Below are positions 5,620 to 28,567 of a stretch of 29,897 bases of DNA, in pieces; position 1 is the first letter of the stretch; each line of letters starts with the position of its first letter. The notes beneath the pieces were generated by a model. The model saw only the letters and a list, made by a program, of their open reading frames with translations, had not been told where the DNA came from and did no database searches. The stretch spans positions 1 to 29,897 of IMG/VR virus record IMGVR_UViG_3300043446_001653; one strand, 5' to 3'. Made by a program: the position numbers and the translations under genes. This DNA is from a virus.

Positions 5620-6522
5620 ATGACGTGGCGGGAAGATGCGGTAAGGTTCGGGAGTATTCGATACGGCCTGCCTATGGAGATCGGCGACTACCACCGCCAC
5701 CCAGCGGTGAGCAAAAGCCACCTCGACCAGATCGCGCGCAGCCCGCTGCACTACTGGGCGCGCTATGTGGATCCGAACCGTGTGGAGCCTGAGCCGACGC
5801 CGGCGATGCTGATCGGCACTGCGGTACACACCCACGTCTTAGAGCTGGACGCATGGGACTCGCGTTATGTCGCAGCACCTGAGGCGATCGACCGGCGCAC
5901 CAAGGCCGGCAAGGAGGCATGGGCAGCGTTTGAGGCTGAGGCTGCCGGGCGCACGGTGATCAGCCGGGCCGATGCAGATCTGGTGATGGCGATCGGCCGC
6001 GCGGTGCACGGGCACCCTGCTGCTGCAGCGCTACTGAGCTGGGAGGGCCAGGCTGAGACCACACACATGTGGATTGACCAGGCGACAGGGCTCGAGTGCA
6101 AGTGCCGGCCGGATTACCTCATCACCGGCAACGGTTCCATGGTGGTAGATCTCAAGACCACCGAGGATGCGAGCCCGGCGGGGTTCCGCAAGTCGATCGC
6201 GAACTTCCGCTACCACGTCCAGGCGGCCTGGTATCTGCACGGGCTTGAGCAGGCCACCGGCAACCGACCGGATGAGTTCATCTTCATCTGCGTTGAGAAG
6301 AAGCCGCCCCATGCGGTCGCGGTCTACGCCGCCGATGCCGAGATGGTCGCCGCCGGCTACGACACCGCCATGCGCGATCTGGAGGTGCTGGCCACCTGCA
6401 AACAGGCGAACGCATGGCCCGGCTACAGCGAGCAGATCGAGCTGATCAGCCTGCCGCCATGGATGCGGCCGCGCCCTGATGGATCCATGCCCACCACATC
6501 ACCCGAAATCGAGTTGTACTGA
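5620..6522 (+). CDS. RecE-like PD-(D/E)XK exonuclease
   Basis: Product of 300 aa with the layout of phage exonuclease VIII-like proteins (DUF3799 type). Signature segments are HPAVSKSHLDQIARSPLHYW near the N-terminus, GTAVHTHVLE (66-75), KCRPDYLI (161-168), the catalytic D177-x-K179 in VVDLKTTEDAS, and YHVQAAWYLHG (198-208). It should degrade duplex DNA 5' to 3' to expose single strands for annealing. The RecT-like gene begins 2 nt after its stop, giving the classic exonuclease plus annealase pair. The start at 5620 has a strong AGGGGG; an internal ATG at 5674 (MEIGDYHRHP) lacks a ribosome site but matches where related proteins usually begin. Confidence 0.88.
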   Translation: MTWREDAVRFGSIRYGLPMEIGDYHRHPAVSKSHLDQIARSPLHYWARYVDPNRVEPEPTPAMLIGTAVHTHVLELDAWDSRYVAAPEAIDRRTKAGKEAWAAFEAEAAGRTVISRADADLVMAIGRAVHGHPAAAALLSWEGQAETTHMWIDQATGLECKCRPDYLITGNGSMVVDLKTTEDASPAGFRKSIANFRYHVQAAWYLHGLEQATGNRPDEFIFICVEKKPPHAVAVYAADAEMVAAGYDTAMRDLEVLATCKQANAWPGYSEQIELISLPPWMRPRPDGSMPTTSPEIELY

Positions 6523-6524
6523 CC

Positions 6525-7217
6525 ATGAGCGAATCAACAGCACTGACCACCACCCAACAGGGTGTGTTTTCAAGCGTGACGGCGTTTGATGAGGCGCAGC
6601 GTTACGCCAAGGCGCTGGCCAGCAGCACGCTCATCCCGCCGCAGTTCCAAGGGCAGCAGGGGTTCGCCAACTGTTTGGTGGCGCTGAACATCAGCCGCCG
6701 CATGGGCATGGATCCGCTGATGGTGATGCAGAACTTGCACATCATCCACGGCCGGCCGAGCTGGTCAAGCCAGTTCATCATCGGCCTGATTAACGGCTGC
6801 GGGCGCTTCAGCCCGCTGCGGTATGAACTGAGCGGCAAGGGCGACACGTTGGCCTGCACAGCAGTTGCCACGGAGCTGAGCACGGGCGAGGAGCTGCGCG
6901 GCCCTGAGGTGACGATGGCGATGGCCAAGCGTGAAGGCTGGGCCACCAAGCAGGGGTCAAAGTGGGCCACGATGCCCGAGCTGATGATCCGCTACAGGGC
7001 CGCGGCCTTCTGGGGCCGGCTCTACATCCCCGAGCTGCTGGTGGGGATCCAGACGCAAGAGGAAGTGCTCGACGTGGAATCGGTCACGGTGACGCAGGCC
7101 GAGCCAGCACCTGCCACTGCGGTCGAGCAGCTGAACGAGAAGATCAAGCAACCAAAGCCGGAGATGCTGCCGGTTGTCATCACAGAGGAGGTAGTTGCCG
7201 ATGACGAAATCTTTTGA
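6525..7217 (+). CDS. RecT-like single-strand annealing protein
   Basis: Product of 230 aa. The centre contains a pattern I associate with phage RecT-type recombinases: ISRRMGMDPLMVMQNLHII, HGRPSWSSQFIIGLINGCG, EVTMAMAKREGW, then the WATMPELMIRYRAAAFWGRL helix. The C-terminal about 45 residues are low-complexity and acidic, usual for a protein-interaction tail. It should coat and anneal the single-stranded DNA made by the adjacent RecE-like exonuclease. Its 3' end overlaps the next HTH gene by 17 nt and contains that gene's ribosome site (GAGGAGGT at 7184-7191). The family call rests on motif memory and strong context; RecT is not the only annealase family, and a profile search would settle which one this is. 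Confidence 0.8.
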   Translation: MSESTALTTTQQGVFSSVTAFDEAQRYAKALASSTLIPPQFQGQQGFANCLVALNISRRMGMDPLMVMQNLHIIHGRPSWSSQFIIGLINGCGRFSPLRYELSGKGDTLACTAVATELSTGEELRGPEVTMAMAKREGWATKQGSKWATMPELMIRYRAAAFWGRLYIPELLVGIQTQEEVLDVESVTVTQAEPAPATAVEQLNEKIKQPKPEMLPVVITEEVVADDEIF

Positions 7218-16537: not shown

Positions 16538-19500
16538 TTAGATCTCCCTGCCGTGTCCGATGGCGGTGTAGGTGAACTGACGGCTCACTGCGTTGCCGGC
16601 ACTGTTCCTAAAGGTTACCTCGAACCCTGTGCGCGTCACGCTGCCGATGGTGAAATAATCGCCTGTTGCCATGTTGAACCCGGTCACGCCAACACTGGGC
16701 GCCTGGTAAAAGCCGTTGCTGAACGTAGCTGTATAGGTGCCGGTGCCGCTTGTCAGCGTCGCAGACTGCTCTGTGCGTTGCTGCAGCTCGATGGTGCAGC
16801 CGAGCTCGTCGATCACGATGTTCTGAGCGGTGTCAGTGCTGGTGGCGATCGTCTTGAACTGGAAGCCGCGGCCGCGCACTATGGCGTTGGCAAACTCGCG
16901 CCAGGTGCTCCAGGTAGGTGTGCCGCTCGGGTCGTCTTCAGTGCTGCGCACATAGAGCGCTGCATTCACCCGATCGGGCGTATCGCCGTCGATCGACTCC
17001 CACGAGTCGATCAGCTCGGTGTTGTCGTCCCACAGTTCGCCCGGCAGATAGGGGCGGGTGACGAAACGCCGCTGCAGGTTCACGTCGAAGATGCCAGGCA
17101 TTGCCAGCGTGGAGCCGAACTCGTACTCGCCGCTGGTCAGCACGCCGCCCACGCTGTCAATCGTCGCCAGCGCATCCCAGTCGCCGTCGGTAGCCATGTC
17201 GTCCACATCCTCGCCGGAGGCGATCACCAGGCCATCGAGGTCGCTGCTGTACACCATGTCGGTAGTGTTGCCGCTGAATGGCGGAGTCTCCTGGTCCTCC
17301 GCATAGGTCTGCACCAGCAGCCGCGGCTGCGGGGTGGGCAGGTCAACCACCGCGGTGGTTGCGTCCGCCGAGCGACGGCCGCCGTCATCCTCGAACTTGA
17401 TCAGGTAGGTGCCCTCCAGCAGCGGCACCTGCTTCTGCGTCTGGCTGCCGGCGGCGCTGGGCACAATCTGCTGGCTGTTTTCCCAGGTCGCGCCAGTCAT
17501 CAGCACGTTGTGACGGATGAGCACCTTGCCGCCCAGCAGCACGTCCAGCTCGGCGGAGCGGTCCCAGCTCAGGATCGCGCTGGCCTGGTCGATCGGGATG
17601 AGGCTCACGCCTGTTGGCGCTGCTGGCGGTGCGGTCTTACCAAAAGCCTGCACCGTCAGTTTTGCCGGATCGACCGACTGCCGCAGGTTTTGGCCGATGC
17701 TGTACACCTCGACTTCGTAGATGCCGGCCGTGGTGTCGAGGATCTCGTAATCGGGCCGCGCCTGCGTAGTGCTTGTCCAGTTACCGTTCTGCGGCCGCCA
17801 GCGCACGCGATACTCGTTCACGCCTACCACCGGCTGCCAGCTGACGATCAGCTTCGCCAGCGCGCGGCCGTTCTGCTCGTAGAGCGCCTCAGTTGCGCGC
17901 AGGTTGGTCGGTGCTGCCGGGATGATGTTCAGGTCGGTGACATCACGCGGCTGCAGCGCCTGCCCCCGCTCGATGTAGTTGTATTTGCTGGCGTCATAGG
18001 CCAGCGCGCTAATGGCGTATTGAGCGCCGTCCTGCTCCTGCACCGATAGCACCCGCCAGGTCGATGCCTGCAGATCATCGCTCTGATGGATCCAGATGCT
18101 GTTCTCGTTTGGGGCCTCAGTGAACTCTGGCGAGACGGTGTAAGTCGGAGAGAGTGAAACGTCAGCAACAGAAACCGTTTCCACGCTGCCGTCCGGCATC
18201 ACAACAGACAGCGTGCCCCCCTCGGTGGGGATGCCGGTTGCATCATCAAGCGTGATTGTGCTGGTGGTCGCCGCAACAATCCGGCCGCCACGGCGCACGC
18301 CAGCACGCACCGGATCGCTCACTTCGATCACCTGGCCGGGGCGCACCACCACACCAGCGTCGATCGATGCGGTGAAGCTGATCACCTCGCTCTCGTACTG
18401 CTCGGAGTAGAGCAGCCATTCGCCGATGCGTGCAGCTTGGCCGCGGGATGTGCAGGCGAAGGCACTGATTTGCGTCGTTACCACGCCGTGCTTGGCAATG
18501 GCCTCTTGATCCTCCACCACCTCGTAGGCGATGTCTCTGGTGTCGAGGTCCAGGTAGCTGACCACGGCCACAGTGGGGCGACCCTTACGGCTGCTGCCCT
18601 GGTAGCTGAAGCCCTCCTCAGAGACGTTCGCCAGCGTGAACAGGTAAGCCGGATCTGATGGCCGGTCTTGGCTGATCGTGAGCGCGCCAGTGCTCCAGTA
18701 GGGCATCACCCGGAACACCGAACACATGTCGTTGATCAGCTTGTAGGCGTCCTCTGCGGTCTGAATGTTGACGTTGCAGGAGAAGCGCGGCTCCTGGCCG
18801 CCGAAGCCGTTAGGCACCAACTCGGAGGCGTACTGGCTGGCGGCGAAGAATGCCCACTTGTCGAGCTGCTCGGCCTTGATGTGATCACCGAAGCCATAGC
18901 GGGTCGAGGTCAGCAGATCCCACAGGATCCAAGCCGGATCAGAGCACCACTGTGCTGCGGCGAAGGTGCCATCCCAGATCCCGCTGTAGATCAGCCGGCC
19001 GTTGGCCTGATCCACCGTCGCGTTGGACGGGATGCGCACCTTGATGCCGCGGATCAGGTAGGAGCGGCTGGGGATGCTGGTGAACTGCTCAGCGTCTACG
19101 CGAAACGCCACCAGTGCGCTGTTGGGATAGCGCAGCTTGGCGTAGGTGATCTCGGTGTAGCTCGACCAGCTGAAGGCGTTGGCCAGCTTGGCGCTGCTGC
19201 TGTCGGCCGTGATCCGCGTCACCTGGATGTCTACCGGGAACGCACCGGAGAGGTTCACCAAATAGTCGCGCTGATAGGTGTCAGCAGTGCGGCCAGCGAT
19301 CGTGTCATCTATGACCGTGGTGTAGCCGCCGCCGTTGTACTGCACGGCGATCTGCAGGCGTACATCGGTGCCATTGATGTCGCCTTGATCGTTGAACTCC
19401 TGAAGCTGCGGCACCGTGATGGCGATCCGCGCAGCGTCCACATTGGTGTCGGTGATCGAGCGAACGATCGGCGTGGCCTGCTGCACCGTCACACCGACAG

Positions 19501-20260
19501 GCTTCTCGTCCTCGATGTCGCTGCTGCCGGGGATGTAGGCCTGTGACTGCGTGCCGTTGCGTGTGTCAATCTCTAGGTTCTTGAAGTTCAGGCTGCCGTT
19601 TGGGTTCTGAACTGGCGTGTTATTTAGGAAGATCGACTGAAGGCCATTTTTTAGGCCTTGGATCTCGCCCTCGCTGATGAGGTCGAGAACCTTGGCGTAC
19701 TGCGTTGAGTTGAGGTTGTCGGCCGCCTCGACAGGCGTCCTCTGCTGGCCGCCGCCGCCGCCGCCGCCCTTGCCGCCTCCACCGCCACCGCCACCACCAC
19801 CAGCGCCGGCGATGCGGCCAATGCCGAGGCCTGCGTTGTGAACGCGGATGCCGCCGGCGATGAAGGTGTGATGCCCCTCGACGGTCAGGTTGTAGACGGT
19901 GCCGTGACACAGCTCGGCCTTGCCGACGATCGGCCGTAGGTGGCCGTTCTCATCCACTAGGCAGTCGTCGCTGCCCAGCGTGTCGATCTCCACAAAGGCG
20001 TTGAACTGGTTCAGCACCCAATGGTTCGGGGTGGCATCAAGCACCGCGCCGCCCCATAGGCGGTAGCGGATCACCCGCTCGCCAGGGTGTTCGTGAACTT
20101 TCAGGATCTTGCCTTGATGAAGAACGCCCTGATCGTCGAAGCTCAGCACCAAGTCGCCGGGCTGTAGCTCATCGATCCGGCGCTGGCCGTCCGGCACCCG
20201 CACCAAGGTGTGCCCGAGGAAGCACCCGCCGCCACCACCTGAGCCGACAATTCGAGCCAT
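16538..20260 (-). CDS. Tail tip host-specificity protein (lambda gpJ-like) with embedded Hint domain
   Basis: Product of 1240 aa. The gpJ pattern starts at RTPVEAADNLNSTQYAKVLD with LISEGEIQGL (about 174-205), which in most relatives follows a short Gly-rich N-terminus. Here an intein-like Hint domain (13-142) and a poly-Gly stretch (about 154-171) precede it. The middle (about 200-720) covers the conserved phage-tail-tip domains, and two fibronectin type III repeats lie at about 785-960 (LIVSWQP, AILSWDR). The C-terminal about 270 residues should contact the receptor. The ATG overlaps the stop of the gpI-like gene (TGATG). gpJ determines adsorption in lambda; that role is inferred by homology and order. 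Confidence 0.95.
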   Translation of the reverse strand: MARIVGSGGGGGCFLGHTLVRVPDGQRRIDELQPGDLVLSFDDQGVLHQGKILKVHEHPGERVIRYRLWGGAVLDATPNHWVLNQFNAFVEIDTLGSDDCLVDENGHLRPIVGKAELCHGTVYNLTVEGHHTFIAGGIRVHNAGLGIGRIAGAGGGGGGGGGGKGGGGGGGQQRTPVEAADNLNSTQYAKVLDLISEGEIQGLKNGLQSIFLNNTPVQNPNGSLNFKNLEIDTRNGTQSQAYIPGSSDIEDEKPVGVTVQQATPIVRSITDTNVDAARIAITVPQLQEFNDQGDINGTDVRLQIAVQYNGGGYTTVIDDTIAGRTADTYQRDYLVNLSGAFPVDIQVTRITADSSSAKLANAFSWSSYTEITYAKLRYPNSALVAFRVDAEQFTSIPSRSYLIRGIKVRIPSNATVDQANGRLIYSGIWDGTFAAAQWCSDPAWILWDLLTSTRYGFGDHIKAEQLDKWAFFAASQYASELVPNGFGGQEPRFSCNVNIQTAEDAYKLINDMCSVFRVMPYWSTGALTISQDRPSDPAYLFTLANVSEEGFSYQGSSRKGRPTVAVVSYLDLDTRDIAYEVVEDQEAIAKHGVVTTQISAFACTSRGQAARIGEWLLYSEQYESEVISFTASIDAGVVVRPGQVIEVSDPVRAGVRRGGRIVAATTSTITLDDATGIPTEGGTLSVVMPDGSVETVSVADVSLSPTYTVSPEFTEAPNENSIWIHQSDDLQASTWRVLSVQEQDGAQYAISALAYDASKYNYIERGQALQPRDVTDLNIIPAAPTNLRATEALYEQNGRALAKLIVSWQPVVGVNEYRVRWRPQNGNWTSTTQARPDYEILDTTAGIYEVEVYSIGQNLRQSVDPAKLTVQAFGKTAPPAAPTGVSLIPIDQASAILSWDRSAELDVLLGGKVLIRHNVLMTGATWENSQQIVPSAAGSQTQKQVPLLEGTYLIKFEDDGGRRSADATTAVVDLPTPQPRLLVQTYAEDQETPPFSGNTTDMVYSSDLDGLVIASGEDVDDMATDGDWDALATIDSVGGVLTSGEYEFGSTLAMPGIFDVNLQRRFVTRPYLPGELWDDNTELIDSWESIDGDTPDRVNAALYVRSTEDDPSGTPTWSTWREFANAIVRGRGFQFKTIATSTDTAQNIVIDELGCTIELQQRTEQSATLTSGTGTYTATFSNGFYQAPSVGVTGFNMATGDYFTIGSVTRTGFEVTFRNSAGNAVSRQFTYTAIGHGREI
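19748..19801 (-). repeat. Poly-glycine codon tract in the gpJ-like gene
   Basis: A run of GGN codons encodes ten Gly, one Lys and seven Gly (residues about 154-171). With the short GSGGGGG run before residue 13, it places the Hint domain between flexible glycine linkers. Low-complexity GC-rich DNA such as this can slip during replication. Confidence 0.9.
19835..20224 (-). other. Intein-like Hint domain (BIL type) in the gpJ-like protein
   Basis: Residues 13-142 read as a Hint fold: Cys13 with CFLGHTLVRVPDG and IDELQPGDLVLS (block A), ATPNHWVL (block B, T77-x2-H80), and TVYNLTVEGHHTFIAGG ending VHN (blocks F and G, H141-N142). About 130 residues is the size of a mini-intein or bacterial intein-like domain; no homing endonuclease insert. 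The residue after Asn142 is Ala, not Cys, Ser or Thr, so normal splicing is not expected. Cleavage or alternative ligation as in A-type BIL domains is possible. Confidence 0.85.
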
Positions 20261-20841
20261 CAGCCGCTCACCTGCACAGTGTCGATACCGGCTGAGATCA
20301 CCACCGAGCCCACCAGGGTCTCGCCGTAAACCACGGGCACGGGCACACCCTGGCGGCTGGTCTGCTGGATGCCGCTGAAGCTGTAGGACTTGCGCGGATC
20401 TTGGTCAGTGTTGGCGCCAGTGCCGCCGGGCAACGGCCCAGCCTTGGGCACCGGGGTGAGCAGCTGCGCCACGCCGCCAAGCACCAAGCTGGCGCCGACG
20501 CCTACCAGCAGCTGCACGCCGAGCTCGCCGATGCCTGGCACCAATAAGCCGACAGCAAGCAGCGCCACGCCAGCGATAATCCGCCCCACTGCCCCTGCAC
20601 CCTGCAGCACCGGCACGATCTTGATCTGCTGCGCACCAACCGGGTCGTGCAGCTCATCCACGGTCAGGTCGTAGTCGCCCACACTGACCCGATAGTGCTG
20701 GTCAGCCATGTGCCGCTCCAGCTGCGGGAAGTTGGCCACCAAGAAACGCACAGCCTCAGCCGCGCTGGCCACCTCGGCCATGAACTTGCGGCGGCCGAGG
20801 AACTTGGCCAAGCGCCCATAGACACGGATCTCGCGCAGCAT
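20260..20841 (-). CDS. Tail assembly protein (lambda gpI-like)
   Basis: Product of 193 aa starting MLREIRVYGRLAKFLGRRKF, a ubiquitin-like beta-grasp beginning typical of gpI, with EAVRFLVANFPQLERHMADQ and a conserved centre DYDLTVDELHDPVGAQQIKI. Residues about 100-150 hold a hydrophobic Gly-rich stretch (AVGRIIAGVALLAVGLLVPG) with membrane-like character, also known in gpI, followed by GVPVPVVYGETLVGSVVISA. The start at 20841, 8 nt after the gpK stop, is preferred over 20904. gpI is needed for tail tip assembly; its exact action is unknown. Confidence 0.88.
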   Translation of the reverse strand: MLREIRVYGRLAKFLGRRKFMAEVASAAEAVRFLVANFPQLERHMADQHYRVSVGDYDLTVDELHDPVGAQQIKIVPVLQGAGAVGRIIAGVALLAVGLLVPGIGELGVQLLVGVGASLVLGGVAQLLTPVPKAGPLPGGTGANTDQDPRKSYSFSGIQQTSRQGVPVPVVYGETLVGSVVISAGIDTVQVSG

Positions 20842-20849
20842 GGCCTCGC

Positions 20850-21569
20850 TCAGCCTCCGCCCATTGTATTGAAGTTGGGATGCCGAAGCCTGCGGCCCGT
20901 GCACTTCATGAGCCAGCCGCCGTAAAGATCACGGCTGCTGAGCCTGCCGCGGATGTGATGCAGCACCAGCTGGTCGCCGATGTAGACGCCAACGTGGTTG
21001 AGCCCTGGTCCGCTGATGCTCATCAGCAGGGCATCGCCCACCTGCAGCTCCTCATTCTCCTCGAGCTCGCGAAAGCCCGCAGTGCGCCAGCAGCCATCGA
21101 ACATCGGCGCCGCCTCGAAGTCCTCCGGAAGCAGCGGCCGCTCCCAATCTGGGAGCTGCAGGCCGTGCTTTGCCCACCAGTCGCGCGCGAGCGTCCAGCA
21201 GTCGGTCATGCCCCACACCCACTCGCGGCCGATCAGTGGCGCCTGGTAGCCGCAGGGTTCGCAGCTGCCCCATGCTTCGGTCTTTGGGTTGACGATGTGC
21301 CAAGGCAGGCCGCTGCGCTCGCAGCCCACCAGATCGGGCTGGCTGGGTTGTGGCGGGGTGATCGGGTGGCTGTGGACCACCGCGGTAATCTCACCGGCAT
21401 CCTCGGCCGCGGCGTAGTCGCTCGGATCGAGCACAAACTGATCGGTATTGCACGCCAGGTTGCGGCACGGCCAGTAACGCTCGCGGCCTTTGACCACCAC
21501 CACCAAGCCGCAGGCTTCGCGAGGATCTTCCGCCTTGGCGTGTTCCAGTGCTGCAGCGCGCCAGCTCAT
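20850..21569 (-). CDS. Tail tip assembly peptidase (lambda gpK-like: JAMM plus NlpC/P60)
   Basis: Product of 239 aa with two domains. N-terminal Mov34/JAB metalloprotease: E18 in EACGL and HSHP-x6-S-x2-D (H66, H68, S76, D79). C-terminal NlpC/P60 hydrolase: catalytic Cys in TDCWTL (C124), His in NHVGVYIGD (H192) and the third polar residue near LVLHHI (H204). Both active sites look intact. In lambda-like phages gpK joins the tail tip and helps DNA pass the cell wall. ATGA overlap with gpL upstream and 8-nt spacing to gpI place it in the standard order. Confidence 0.95.
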
Positions 21570-22246
21570 GCGAGGAACGTCCCGACGCCAGGGAAGGAGC
21601 CGAACGGCAGCTCAGCGTTGCCGCCGAAATGTGCTTTGCAGGCGTCGAGCGTCTTGTCGCAGGTGGGCAGCCCGCCGTTGTAGCCACACTCCGCCGACTT
21701 GTAGACCCACTGGCAGATATTGGCGATGCACTGCCGCTTCGGCGCCCGCACGCCGGCGAGGTCGAACGCTGCCGCCAGCTCAAACTCCACCACGTCGCGG
21801 GTCTCAGCCGTCTTGCGGTCGATGTAGTAGATCTCGCGAGGGAACTCGGCTGTCGGGTCCGGTGTGCCGTAGGGGTTGACGCTGCCGGAAAAATTCACCG
21901 CATCGATGTAGCGCGCCAGCGTGCGAATCCGCGTCACCTTGGCGCCCTCTAAGCCATCCGGCAGAGTCAGCAGCAATGCGGTGATGGTGCCCAGGATGTT
22001 GCTGCAGCGGATCTTAGGCCGCGGCAGCTGGCCGTTGCCGCTGTACTCAAAGCCGTCCGCCTCAATCGGAAAACGCAGATACTCATTGCCGGCCCAGATC
22101 AGCGCGCCGTTGTTGTTCAGGTTGGTGCCGGCATGAAAGCGAAAGGTCTCGCTTGTGCCGTGCTGCGTGGTGTTGAGCTCCAGCTCGAATAGCTCGATGA
22201 CTGCGCTCGGCGCAACAGCCTGCAGATCAGAGACTGGAACTGTCAC
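21566..22246 (-). CDS. Minor tail protein (lambda gpL-like, Fe-S)
   Basis: Product of 226 aa. The C-terminal third has four Cys in the gpL pattern ([32 protein letters not shown]), where lambda gpL is known to bind an iron-sulphur cluster. Other family landmarks are VIELFELEL at the N-terminus and a conserved region around [19 protein letters not shown]. It forms part of the tail tip complex with J, I and K. ATGA overlaps with M and K support operon translation. Confidence 0.93.
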
Positions 22247-27238: not shown

Positions 27239-28567
27239 TCAGTAGGTCATTTCCGTTGTTTCAATCTTCGCTACCCAGCGGATTGTGGTAGCTGCTGCGC
27301 CAGTGACTTCAACTTTAATCCCGCCGTTGGTGGTGTCTGCCGTGACAGCAACAGACCACGTTGCAGCACCAGCGTCGAAATGCGTCATGGTGACTGTAGG
27401 CGTGCCAACCATCGCGGTAGATGCTGCGTTAGCGCCACGCTTAATAGCGCCGTCGATCGTCCAGCGTGCGGTGTTACCTGCTGCCGTAACACCTGCGATC
27501 ACCTCGCCGCTGAAGCTATAAGCGCTGTTGTTGGGGAGGATGACTTGGTTATCAGTGCCGGCACCGCTTCCGTTGCTGCGGAGAATAGTGGCAGTGGCGG
27601 TGGTGGTTTGCGTGGCTAAAACAAGCAATCCTCCTTGACTAACACCACTTGCTGACGCGATTGGCACGCTGCAAGCTGGAAACGCAAAGTATCCTTGAAT
27701 GCTGCGTGTACTGCCGTACCTTCCTCCGGGAATAGTGCTAAATCGCCCATTTGCAGTGTTATTTGATCCACCGCCGACAACGCTAGAAATTAACCCGCTA
27801 GATACATTGTTATCCCCACCCCCCACAAACGAATACTGCCCAGTCGCTGTATTGCTACTACCCCCACACACCGCAGCGTGCGTGCTGGTTTGAGCGGTGT
27901 TGCTCTGACCGCCGCCGACGAAGGAAAAGCTACTAGAGGCGTTGTTACCGTCGCCGCCAGCAATAGCTGTGTAAGTGCCCGAAGCATTGTTAGTGCTACC
28001 AGCCCCTACAAACGAGTAAATGCTAGAAGCAATGTTGCTGATGCCAGCACCAACAAAAGATCCAGTGCCAGACGCAGTATTTTGGCTGCCTCCTGTTATG
28101 ACTGCGCGTAGCCCGCTCGATACCTGAGTCCCAGTATTGCGCAGTTTCTGTAAATCAGTCGCGTAAGCCCCTCGCTTATTGCCACCCGTTGCGGTCCCAT
28201 CCGGCACCTGCGCCAGTGTTGCGCCTGTGCCTTTGGCAACCAGCGCCACGTCAATGTTGGTGTAGCTCGCATCCGTTGCCGTCAGCGCATCGACCGGGAC
28301 TGTGGCATTAGGGCTGGCAGTTTCCTCGCTCTCGACAAAATGTGTCAGCCCGCCGCCACCACCTGCTGTTGCCCACGACAGCACACCAGAACCATCAGTG
28401 CTGAGCACTTGACCGCTGGTGCCATCAGCAGAAGGCAGTGTCCAGATGCGGTTGGTGGTAATGGTGGCAGGAGCCTTGAAGCCGACATAAGCAGACGAAT
28501 CCGCATCAGCCAGCCGCAGCTCGCGTTGTGCGTTGAGCGTTATGTCGGTTTCAAAGACCCGTGACAT
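27239..28567 (-). CDS. Tail fibre / adhesin with YadA-head-like repeats (442 aa)
   Basis: Residues 8-65 (DITLNAQRELRLADADSSAY to DGSGVLSW) form a module also present in the distal fibre at 15602. A glycine hinge (about 69-73) is followed by a stretch with RGAYATDLQKLRNTG and by about eight repeats of 15 residues (155-283) of the style SFVGGG-SNTASG-Y, which resemble the left-handed beta-roll head repeats of trimeric YadA-like adhesins. The C-terminus (about 295-442) is a beta-rich domain. A trimeric fibre or decoration protein is likely. Its ATG overlaps the preceding stop (TGATG). Confidence 0.85.
   Translation of the reverse strand: MSRVFETDITLNAQRELRLADADSSAYVGFKAPATITTNRIWTLPSADGTSGQVLSTDGSGVLSWATAGGGGGLTHFVESEETASPNATVPVDALTATDASYTNIDVALVAKGTGATLAQVPDGTATGGNKRGAYATDLQKLRNTGTQVSSGLRAVITGGSQNTASGTGSFVGAGISNIASSIYSFVGAGSTNNASGTYTAIAGGDGNNASSSFSFVGGGQSNTAQTSTHAAVCGGSSNTATGQYSFVGGGDNNVSSGLISSVVGGGSNNTANGRFSTIPGGRYGSTRSIQGYFAFPACSVPIASASGVSQGGLLVLATQTTTATATILRSNGSGAGTDNQVILPNNSAYSFSGEVIAGVTAAGNTARWTIDGAIKRGANAASTAMVGTPTVTMTHFDAGAATWSVAVTADTTNGGIKVEVTGAAATTIRWVAKIETTEMTY
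27719..28105 (-). repeat. Tandem 15-residue repeats (beta-roll)
   Basis: About eight imperfect repeats of 45 nt encode units such as SFVGAGSTNNASGTY, SFVGGGQSNTAQTST and SFVGGGDNNVSSGLI. The nucleotide repeats have diverged, indicating selection on protein structure rather than recent DNA duplication. Confidence 0.72.

Follow-up and report, generated by a model that had tools for sequence, protein, structure and literature searches.

A conserved, A-type BIL-like Hint domain at the N-terminus of a gpJ-like tail-tip protein in uncultured phages

Phage inteins are usually described in proteins of DNA metabolism and packaging. The locus analyzed here raises the question of why an intein-like Hint domain should stand at the start of a tail-tip protein, and what becomes of it there. 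The window, by which we mean the whole 29,897-nt stretch of the IMG/VR virus record IMGVR_UViG_3300043446_001653, carries on its minus strand a tail operon in the canonical order L-K-I-J: a minor tail protein gpL (21566..22246), gpK with JAB and NlpC/P60 domains (20850..21569), gpI with a ubiquitin-like (Ubl) domain of the MoaD/SAMP type from residue 24, followed by P-V-x-x-G-x-G and a plug region (20260..20904), and a 1240-aa homologue of lambda gpJ (16538..20260). Gene order and profile match both mark the last of these as a lambda-type tail-tip protein J. Its core aligns from its start with lambda gpJ (8iyk, 9e7m; E 1e-42), which is encoded in the same L-K-I-J order, and residues 167–889 align to positions 2–723 of the canonical gpJ profile NF049904. 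Because the profile alignment begins only at residue 167, residues 1 to ∼165 are an N-terminal addition; these extra residues, mostly Hint domain, distinguish the window protein from lambda gpJ. Elsewhere in the window, a 442-aa ORF adjoining the head genes (27239–28567, minus strand) had no PHROG match at 1e-5.

The original prediction, made from the letters alone, had assigned positions 19835–20224 to a Hint domain, and this interval corresponds exactly to residues 13–142 of the gpJ homologue on the minus strand, with the proposed active-site residues where they had been placed. The N-terminus reads MARIVGSGGGGG, then CFLGHTLV at the start of the domain, LDATPNHWVL within it, and GHHTFIAGGIRVHN at its end, directly followed by AGLGIGRIAGAGGGG. 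Residues 1–12 (MARIVGSGGGGG; 20225..20260, minus) form the N-flank, which holds a first copy of an [ILV]xG[AS]GGG motif and places Gly at −1. The domain itself has no endonuclease insert; it opens with Cys13, the block A nucleophile at intein position 1 (20222..20224), carries the block B TxxH motif as T77-P-N-H80 (20021..20032), and closes in block G with His141-Asn142 (19835..19840). Positions +1 to +4 are Ala-Gly-Leu-Gly (19823..19834), and the sequence from A143 onward, AGLGIGRIAGAGGGG, leads into a second motif copy, IAGAGGGG (residues 150–157; 19790..19813), that runs on into the Gly/Lys tract of canonical gpJ. Since the gpJ profile begins at residue 167, removal of the Hint domain would leave gpJ complete. 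There is no in-frame ATG, GTG, or TTG in the window gene between residues 102 and 257, which rules out an internal start that bypasses the domain and means that gpJ cannot be translated without it.

Residues 13–142 were confirmed as a complete Hint domain by profile searches and by the predicted fold. The isolated 130-aa domain scored above cut-off with both NCBIfam intein terminal models, at 26.2 bits for TIGR01443 intein_Cterm (cut-off 15.6) and 25.3 bits for TIGR01445 intein_Nterm (cut-off 24.5). The Pfam models Hint, PT-HINT, Hint_2, and Intein_splicing matched the window copy at E 1e-6 to 2e-5, slightly below their gathering scores, and some Pfam cut-offs were passed by two relatives (L328 and L275). 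A PDB sequence search matched the Mtu RecA mini-intein (E 4e-7). AlphaFold2, with 44 relatives in the alignment, gave block mean pLDDT values of 93–98 across residues 11–140; the predicted fold matched inteins, BIL domains, and Hedgehog at VIA Z ∼16–22, and its top Foldseek match was BIL2 of BUBL1 (3.8e-11, 22% identity). The Hint fold and blocks A, B, F, and G that define the HINT superfamily are thus all present, and the profile scores, the fold match, and the fixed catalytic residues described below rule out chance similarity.

A single IMG/VR scan returned at least 456 related contigs or stretches, 80 of which were kept, a number that rules out a one-off or assembly artefact. Scans by DNA pattern, by profile, and with divergent queries brought the total to 200 distinct full domains. 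In the flanks inspected, the domain comes early in gpJ-like ORFs, in most cases 10–18 residues past a Met. The gpJ-borne Hint was absent from 50,697 cultured-phage records, in which the nearest matches, at <32% identity, were mostly terminase or helicase inteins plus some unannotated hypothetical proteins. The only cellular match was a contig of one cyanobacterial MAG, with no further strong match in 300 genomes of that MAG's family. Given this sole cellular match, a cyanobacterial host is likely: the window phage probably infects aquatic cyanobacteria, and some of the Hint-bearing phages probably infect picocyanobacteria. A PADLOC search found nothing. The best viral structure match (BFVD A0A218MKA3, 37% identity) comes from an uncultured virus; this 1016-residue protein, deposited as "Putative gp62", is probably a further gpJ-Hint protein. 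One contig (that of L392) also encodes an 839-aa ORF (G003:C1:11763–13073) in which Hint N- and C-terminal parts lie ∼1 kb apart, probably a separate intein of endonuclease size.

Conservation of the active site is nearly complete. The C-terminal His-Asn occurs in all 200 distinct copies, Cys1 and TxxH in 199 each, and Gly at −1 in 197, while 182 copies have Ala, 17 Gly, and one Ser at +1. In an alignment of 181 distinct copies, the five catalytic positions are essentially invariant (single exception, H68N), and Trp81, Asn84-Gln85, and Cys100 are conserved beyond the classic catalytic set. The sole copy without Cys1 (L340) is scrambled upstream of block B with the remaining Hint intact, which probably reflects a frameshift, a sequencing error, or decay of the copy. 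Three subtypes were distinguished by the residues at the C-terminal junction: HN-AGLG, which is picocyanophage-like and includes the window; HN-AGIG; and HN-GGHR or HN-GGYR, found on contigs of up to 110 kb.

These features resemble an A-type BIL domain and not a class 1 intein. The A-type domain of Clostridium thermocellum (2lwy) has the same fold (Z 20.6, rmsd 1.6 over 132) and shares with the gpJ Hint the Cys at position 1, where A-type domains have Cys or Ser, TxxH, the C-terminal His-Asn, and the lack of an endonuclease and of a +1 nucleophile, the latter position being Ala143 in the window. The gpJ Hint differs from 2lwy in its N-terminal place on a virion tail-tip protein, its duplicated Gly-rich flanks, and its Ala-Gly or Gly-Gly pair at +1/+2, which is nearly invariant. 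Class 1 mini-inteins (Mtu RecA, gp41-1, Ssp DnaB) likewise share the fold (Z 20–22) and blocks A, B, F, and G, but the window domain lacks their Cys, Ser, or Thr at +1. Class 2 and class 3 do not fit, as Cys1 is present and block F (YNLTV) has Asn where class 3 has Cys (F:4). Nor does the PT-HINT of polymorphic toxins, in which the Hint immediately precedes a toxin domain within a secreted protein, as gpJ and not a toxin domain lies downstream. The proposal of a BIL-like Hint without endonuclease was therefore borne out by intein profiles, predicted fold, and conserved active site.

As originally described, the domain sits between two Gly tracts at a place where the gpJ of close relatives shows no more than a short Gly-rich start. 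Each flank contains one copy of the [ILV]xG[AS]G motif, the N-flank copy is kept in 190 of the 200 distinct domains, and AGLG occupies +1 to +4 in every copy of the window's clade (95/95). All synonymous codons are used at Gly −1 and AGLG, with six codons for Leu+3, so selection acts on the peptide. Rare deviations of the motif are common to both flanks (ASTGG/ASTGG, GSKGG/GSKGG) more often than in shuffled pairs, a shuffling that ignores phylogenetic relatedness. Third-position identity between the N- and C-flank motifs shows no excess, which rules out recent gene conversion as the source of their likeness; with the shared deviations, it suggests that the N-flank matters as protein. An N-terminal piece carrying one of two motif copies would be an odd thing merely to discard, and the retention of its motif is the main argument that the N-flank may be more than waste.

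Hint-less relatives clarify the ancestral state. Their gpJ starts M..IxGAGGGGGGGKGGGG, without AGLG, whereas the filled form is IxG[AS]GGG-[Hint-AGLG..]-IxG[AS]GGG. The Hint is thus an add-on with one copy of the ancestral N-terminal motif on either side. Among 123 distinct gpI+gpJ loci the domain is present in 98 and absent in 25, and the two states can be very close: an empty locus (L087) and a filled one (L131) share 95–98% identity per 300-nt block throughout the 1.5 kb that precede the start codon. A gpI+gpJ tree requires 13 presence changes, at least 10 of them forced by well-supported branches; these numbers are approximate, coming from a quick maximum likelihood tree (LG+G4, short search). 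At four-fold sites the Hint is as diverged as gpJ and gpI, near saturation in distant pairs, and its divergence agrees with that of the flanks at all depths. This agreement favours an old domain that was mostly inherited vertically and repeatedly lost. Some pairs show 90–93% nucleotide identity in the Hint and only 70–76% in the flanks, so limited exchange between phages is likely as well. The window also encodes an Exonuclease VIII-like and RecT-like recombination pair (5620–7217, plus strand), which could promote recombination around the Gly-repeat flanks.

At the amino-acid level, the Hint is unusually conserved. In the most distant pairs, Hint identity is 68%, compared with 52% for gpL, 48% for gpK, 39% for gpI, and 48% for gpJ. 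As synonymous sites are saturated in such pairs, very recent spread was rejected as the main cause, and the comparison indicates an old domain under strong purifying selection. Conservation above that of all tested neighbouring tail proteins may be more than self-excision alone requires. It would also suit a Hint that stays on gpJ unprocessed and serves the tail tip structurally or in binding, all the more as residues such as Trp81, Asn84-Gln85, and Cys100 are included; we regard this as very improbable, with the whole catalytic set fixed in the 200 copies and near-identical phages doing without the domain. The repeated, clean losses show that the Hint is dispensable on an evolutionary scale and argue against an obligatory maturation switch.

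The same changes in presence bear on whether the domain is a true mini-intein, a selfish or neutral element that persists while its flanks are spliced into a gpJ with two tandem motif copies, either by the aminolysis described for A-type BILs or, in a rare Ser+1 case, by the normal route. At least 10 changes on the tree, the pairs in which the Hint appears to have been transferred, and flank motifs that are both kept and share deviations without excess third-position identity would all fit such an element. So would L301 (1834–4389), which alone among the 200 copies has Ser at +1 (HN-SGLG) and is a natural candidate for true splicing. The +1 residue is otherwise never a nucleophile, however (Cys and Thr do not occur), no endonuclease is present, and the insertion site is a disordered Gly tract and not a conserved functional site. 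Excision would moreover not restore the host sequence, as a spliced product keeps the AGLG that empty relatives lack. On balance we consider a mini-intein unlikely.

The explanation we favour as probable is a self-removing, A-type BIL-like Hint module that is fixed at the gpJ N-terminus and has no endonuclease. A gpJ precursor that loses the Hint autocatalytically is the most economical reading; the residues needed are all conserved, and the +1 residue is small and non-nucleophilic. In type A BILs, a thioester arises at the N-terminal end and the C-terminal bond is cut through Asn cyclisation; the amine released in this way may react with the thioester and so join the flanks, but cleavage dominates (PMC4031507, PMC7664689). 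By analogy, the precursor would be made as M-IxG[AS]GGGG-Hint-AGLG..IxG[AS]GGGG-gpJ, cyclisation of Asn142 would break the predicted scissile bond N142-A143, and Cys13 would turn the Gly12-Cys13 bond into a thioester. This thioester would either be hydrolysed or react with the amine set free on Ala143, so that a minority of chains is joined again. The mature protein would start AGLG..IAGAGGGGKGGGG, or with the 12-residue leader ligated ahead, and would resemble the Gly-rich start of Hint-less relatives. Both the order of bond breakage and the timing, during or before tail-tip assembly, are predicted here. The chemistry first proposed, Asn-dependent C-terminal cleavage or a Cys thioester, is plausible, with more behind it than the letters alone could show. 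That gpJ undergoes some form of autoprocessing seems very likely to us, and C-terminal cleavage is plausibly, on somewhat better than even terms, its main reaction, although a cut at this bond alone would account for the kept N-flank motif only as far as Gly −1 is needed. Ordinary splicing had been judged improbable from Ala at +1; the residue stands, but splicing cannot be dismissed on that ground, as type A BILs ligate without a nucleophile (PMC4031507), and we rate it as a rather doubtful main product.

A last possibility involves the neighbouring genes. The Ubl fold of gpI was confirmed (MoaD/SAMP1 at VIA Z 10–11), and the domain ends in an invariant P..G.G motif. The tail after this domain (P-V-[ILV]-x-G-A-G) and the two gpJ flank motifs (IxGAGGGG) look alike, which could reflect a shared binding or JAB-recognition signal. 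The JAB domain of TAPK has been proposed to release the TAPI Ubl at a C-terminal glycine, and gpI-gpJ fusions were noted in some prophages (Iyer et al., PMC1779556). Lambda virions lack gpK, and the resolved part of their gpI begins only at residue 101 or 135 (PMC11101478, PMC10721106). Among the 200 copies no gpI-gpJ fusion was found, which rules out the Hint as a separator within such a fusion. In Tetrahymena thermophila, BIL2 of BUBL1 (6y75, 6tmm) attaches a Ubl to lysines (PMC8616854). An equivalent ATP-free conjugation would have the Cys13 thioester pass the Gly-ending leader on to a tail-protein amine, with gpK able to process or reverse the conjugation and the IxGAG tails of gpI and gpJ serving as a common recognition signal. 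Ubl and protease-like genes do lie near the gpJ Hint, BUBL1 BIL2 is the top structural match, Gly stands at −1 in nearly every copy, and the invariant gpI tail is like the gpJ flanks. In BUBL, however, the BIL and the Ubl domains on either side of it form a single polypeptide, whereas here the Ubl is a separate gene, the N-flank has 12 residues, and no Ubl lies directly upstream in the same chain; judged by Z, the fit to other inteins and to BIL 2lwy is just as good. The likeness to BUBL is attractive yet indirect; the gpJ protein is not itself a BUBL protein, and we consider conjugation of this kind quite improbable.

Conserved yet recurrently lost, this A-type BIL-like domain belongs to the receptor-binding tail tip of hundreds of uncultured phages. 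A known protein-processing chemistry thus appears to be used in a protein of the virus particle, and we found no earlier report of this, nor any description of a Hint domain in gpJ or the tail tip, in the open-access literature. Near-identical phages with and without the Hint provide a natural comparison, and the biological role of A-type BIL domains becomes directly testable. If the link to the Ubl and JAB proteins is true, the question of why lambda-like tails encode ubiquitin-like and JAB-domain proteins would also come within reach.
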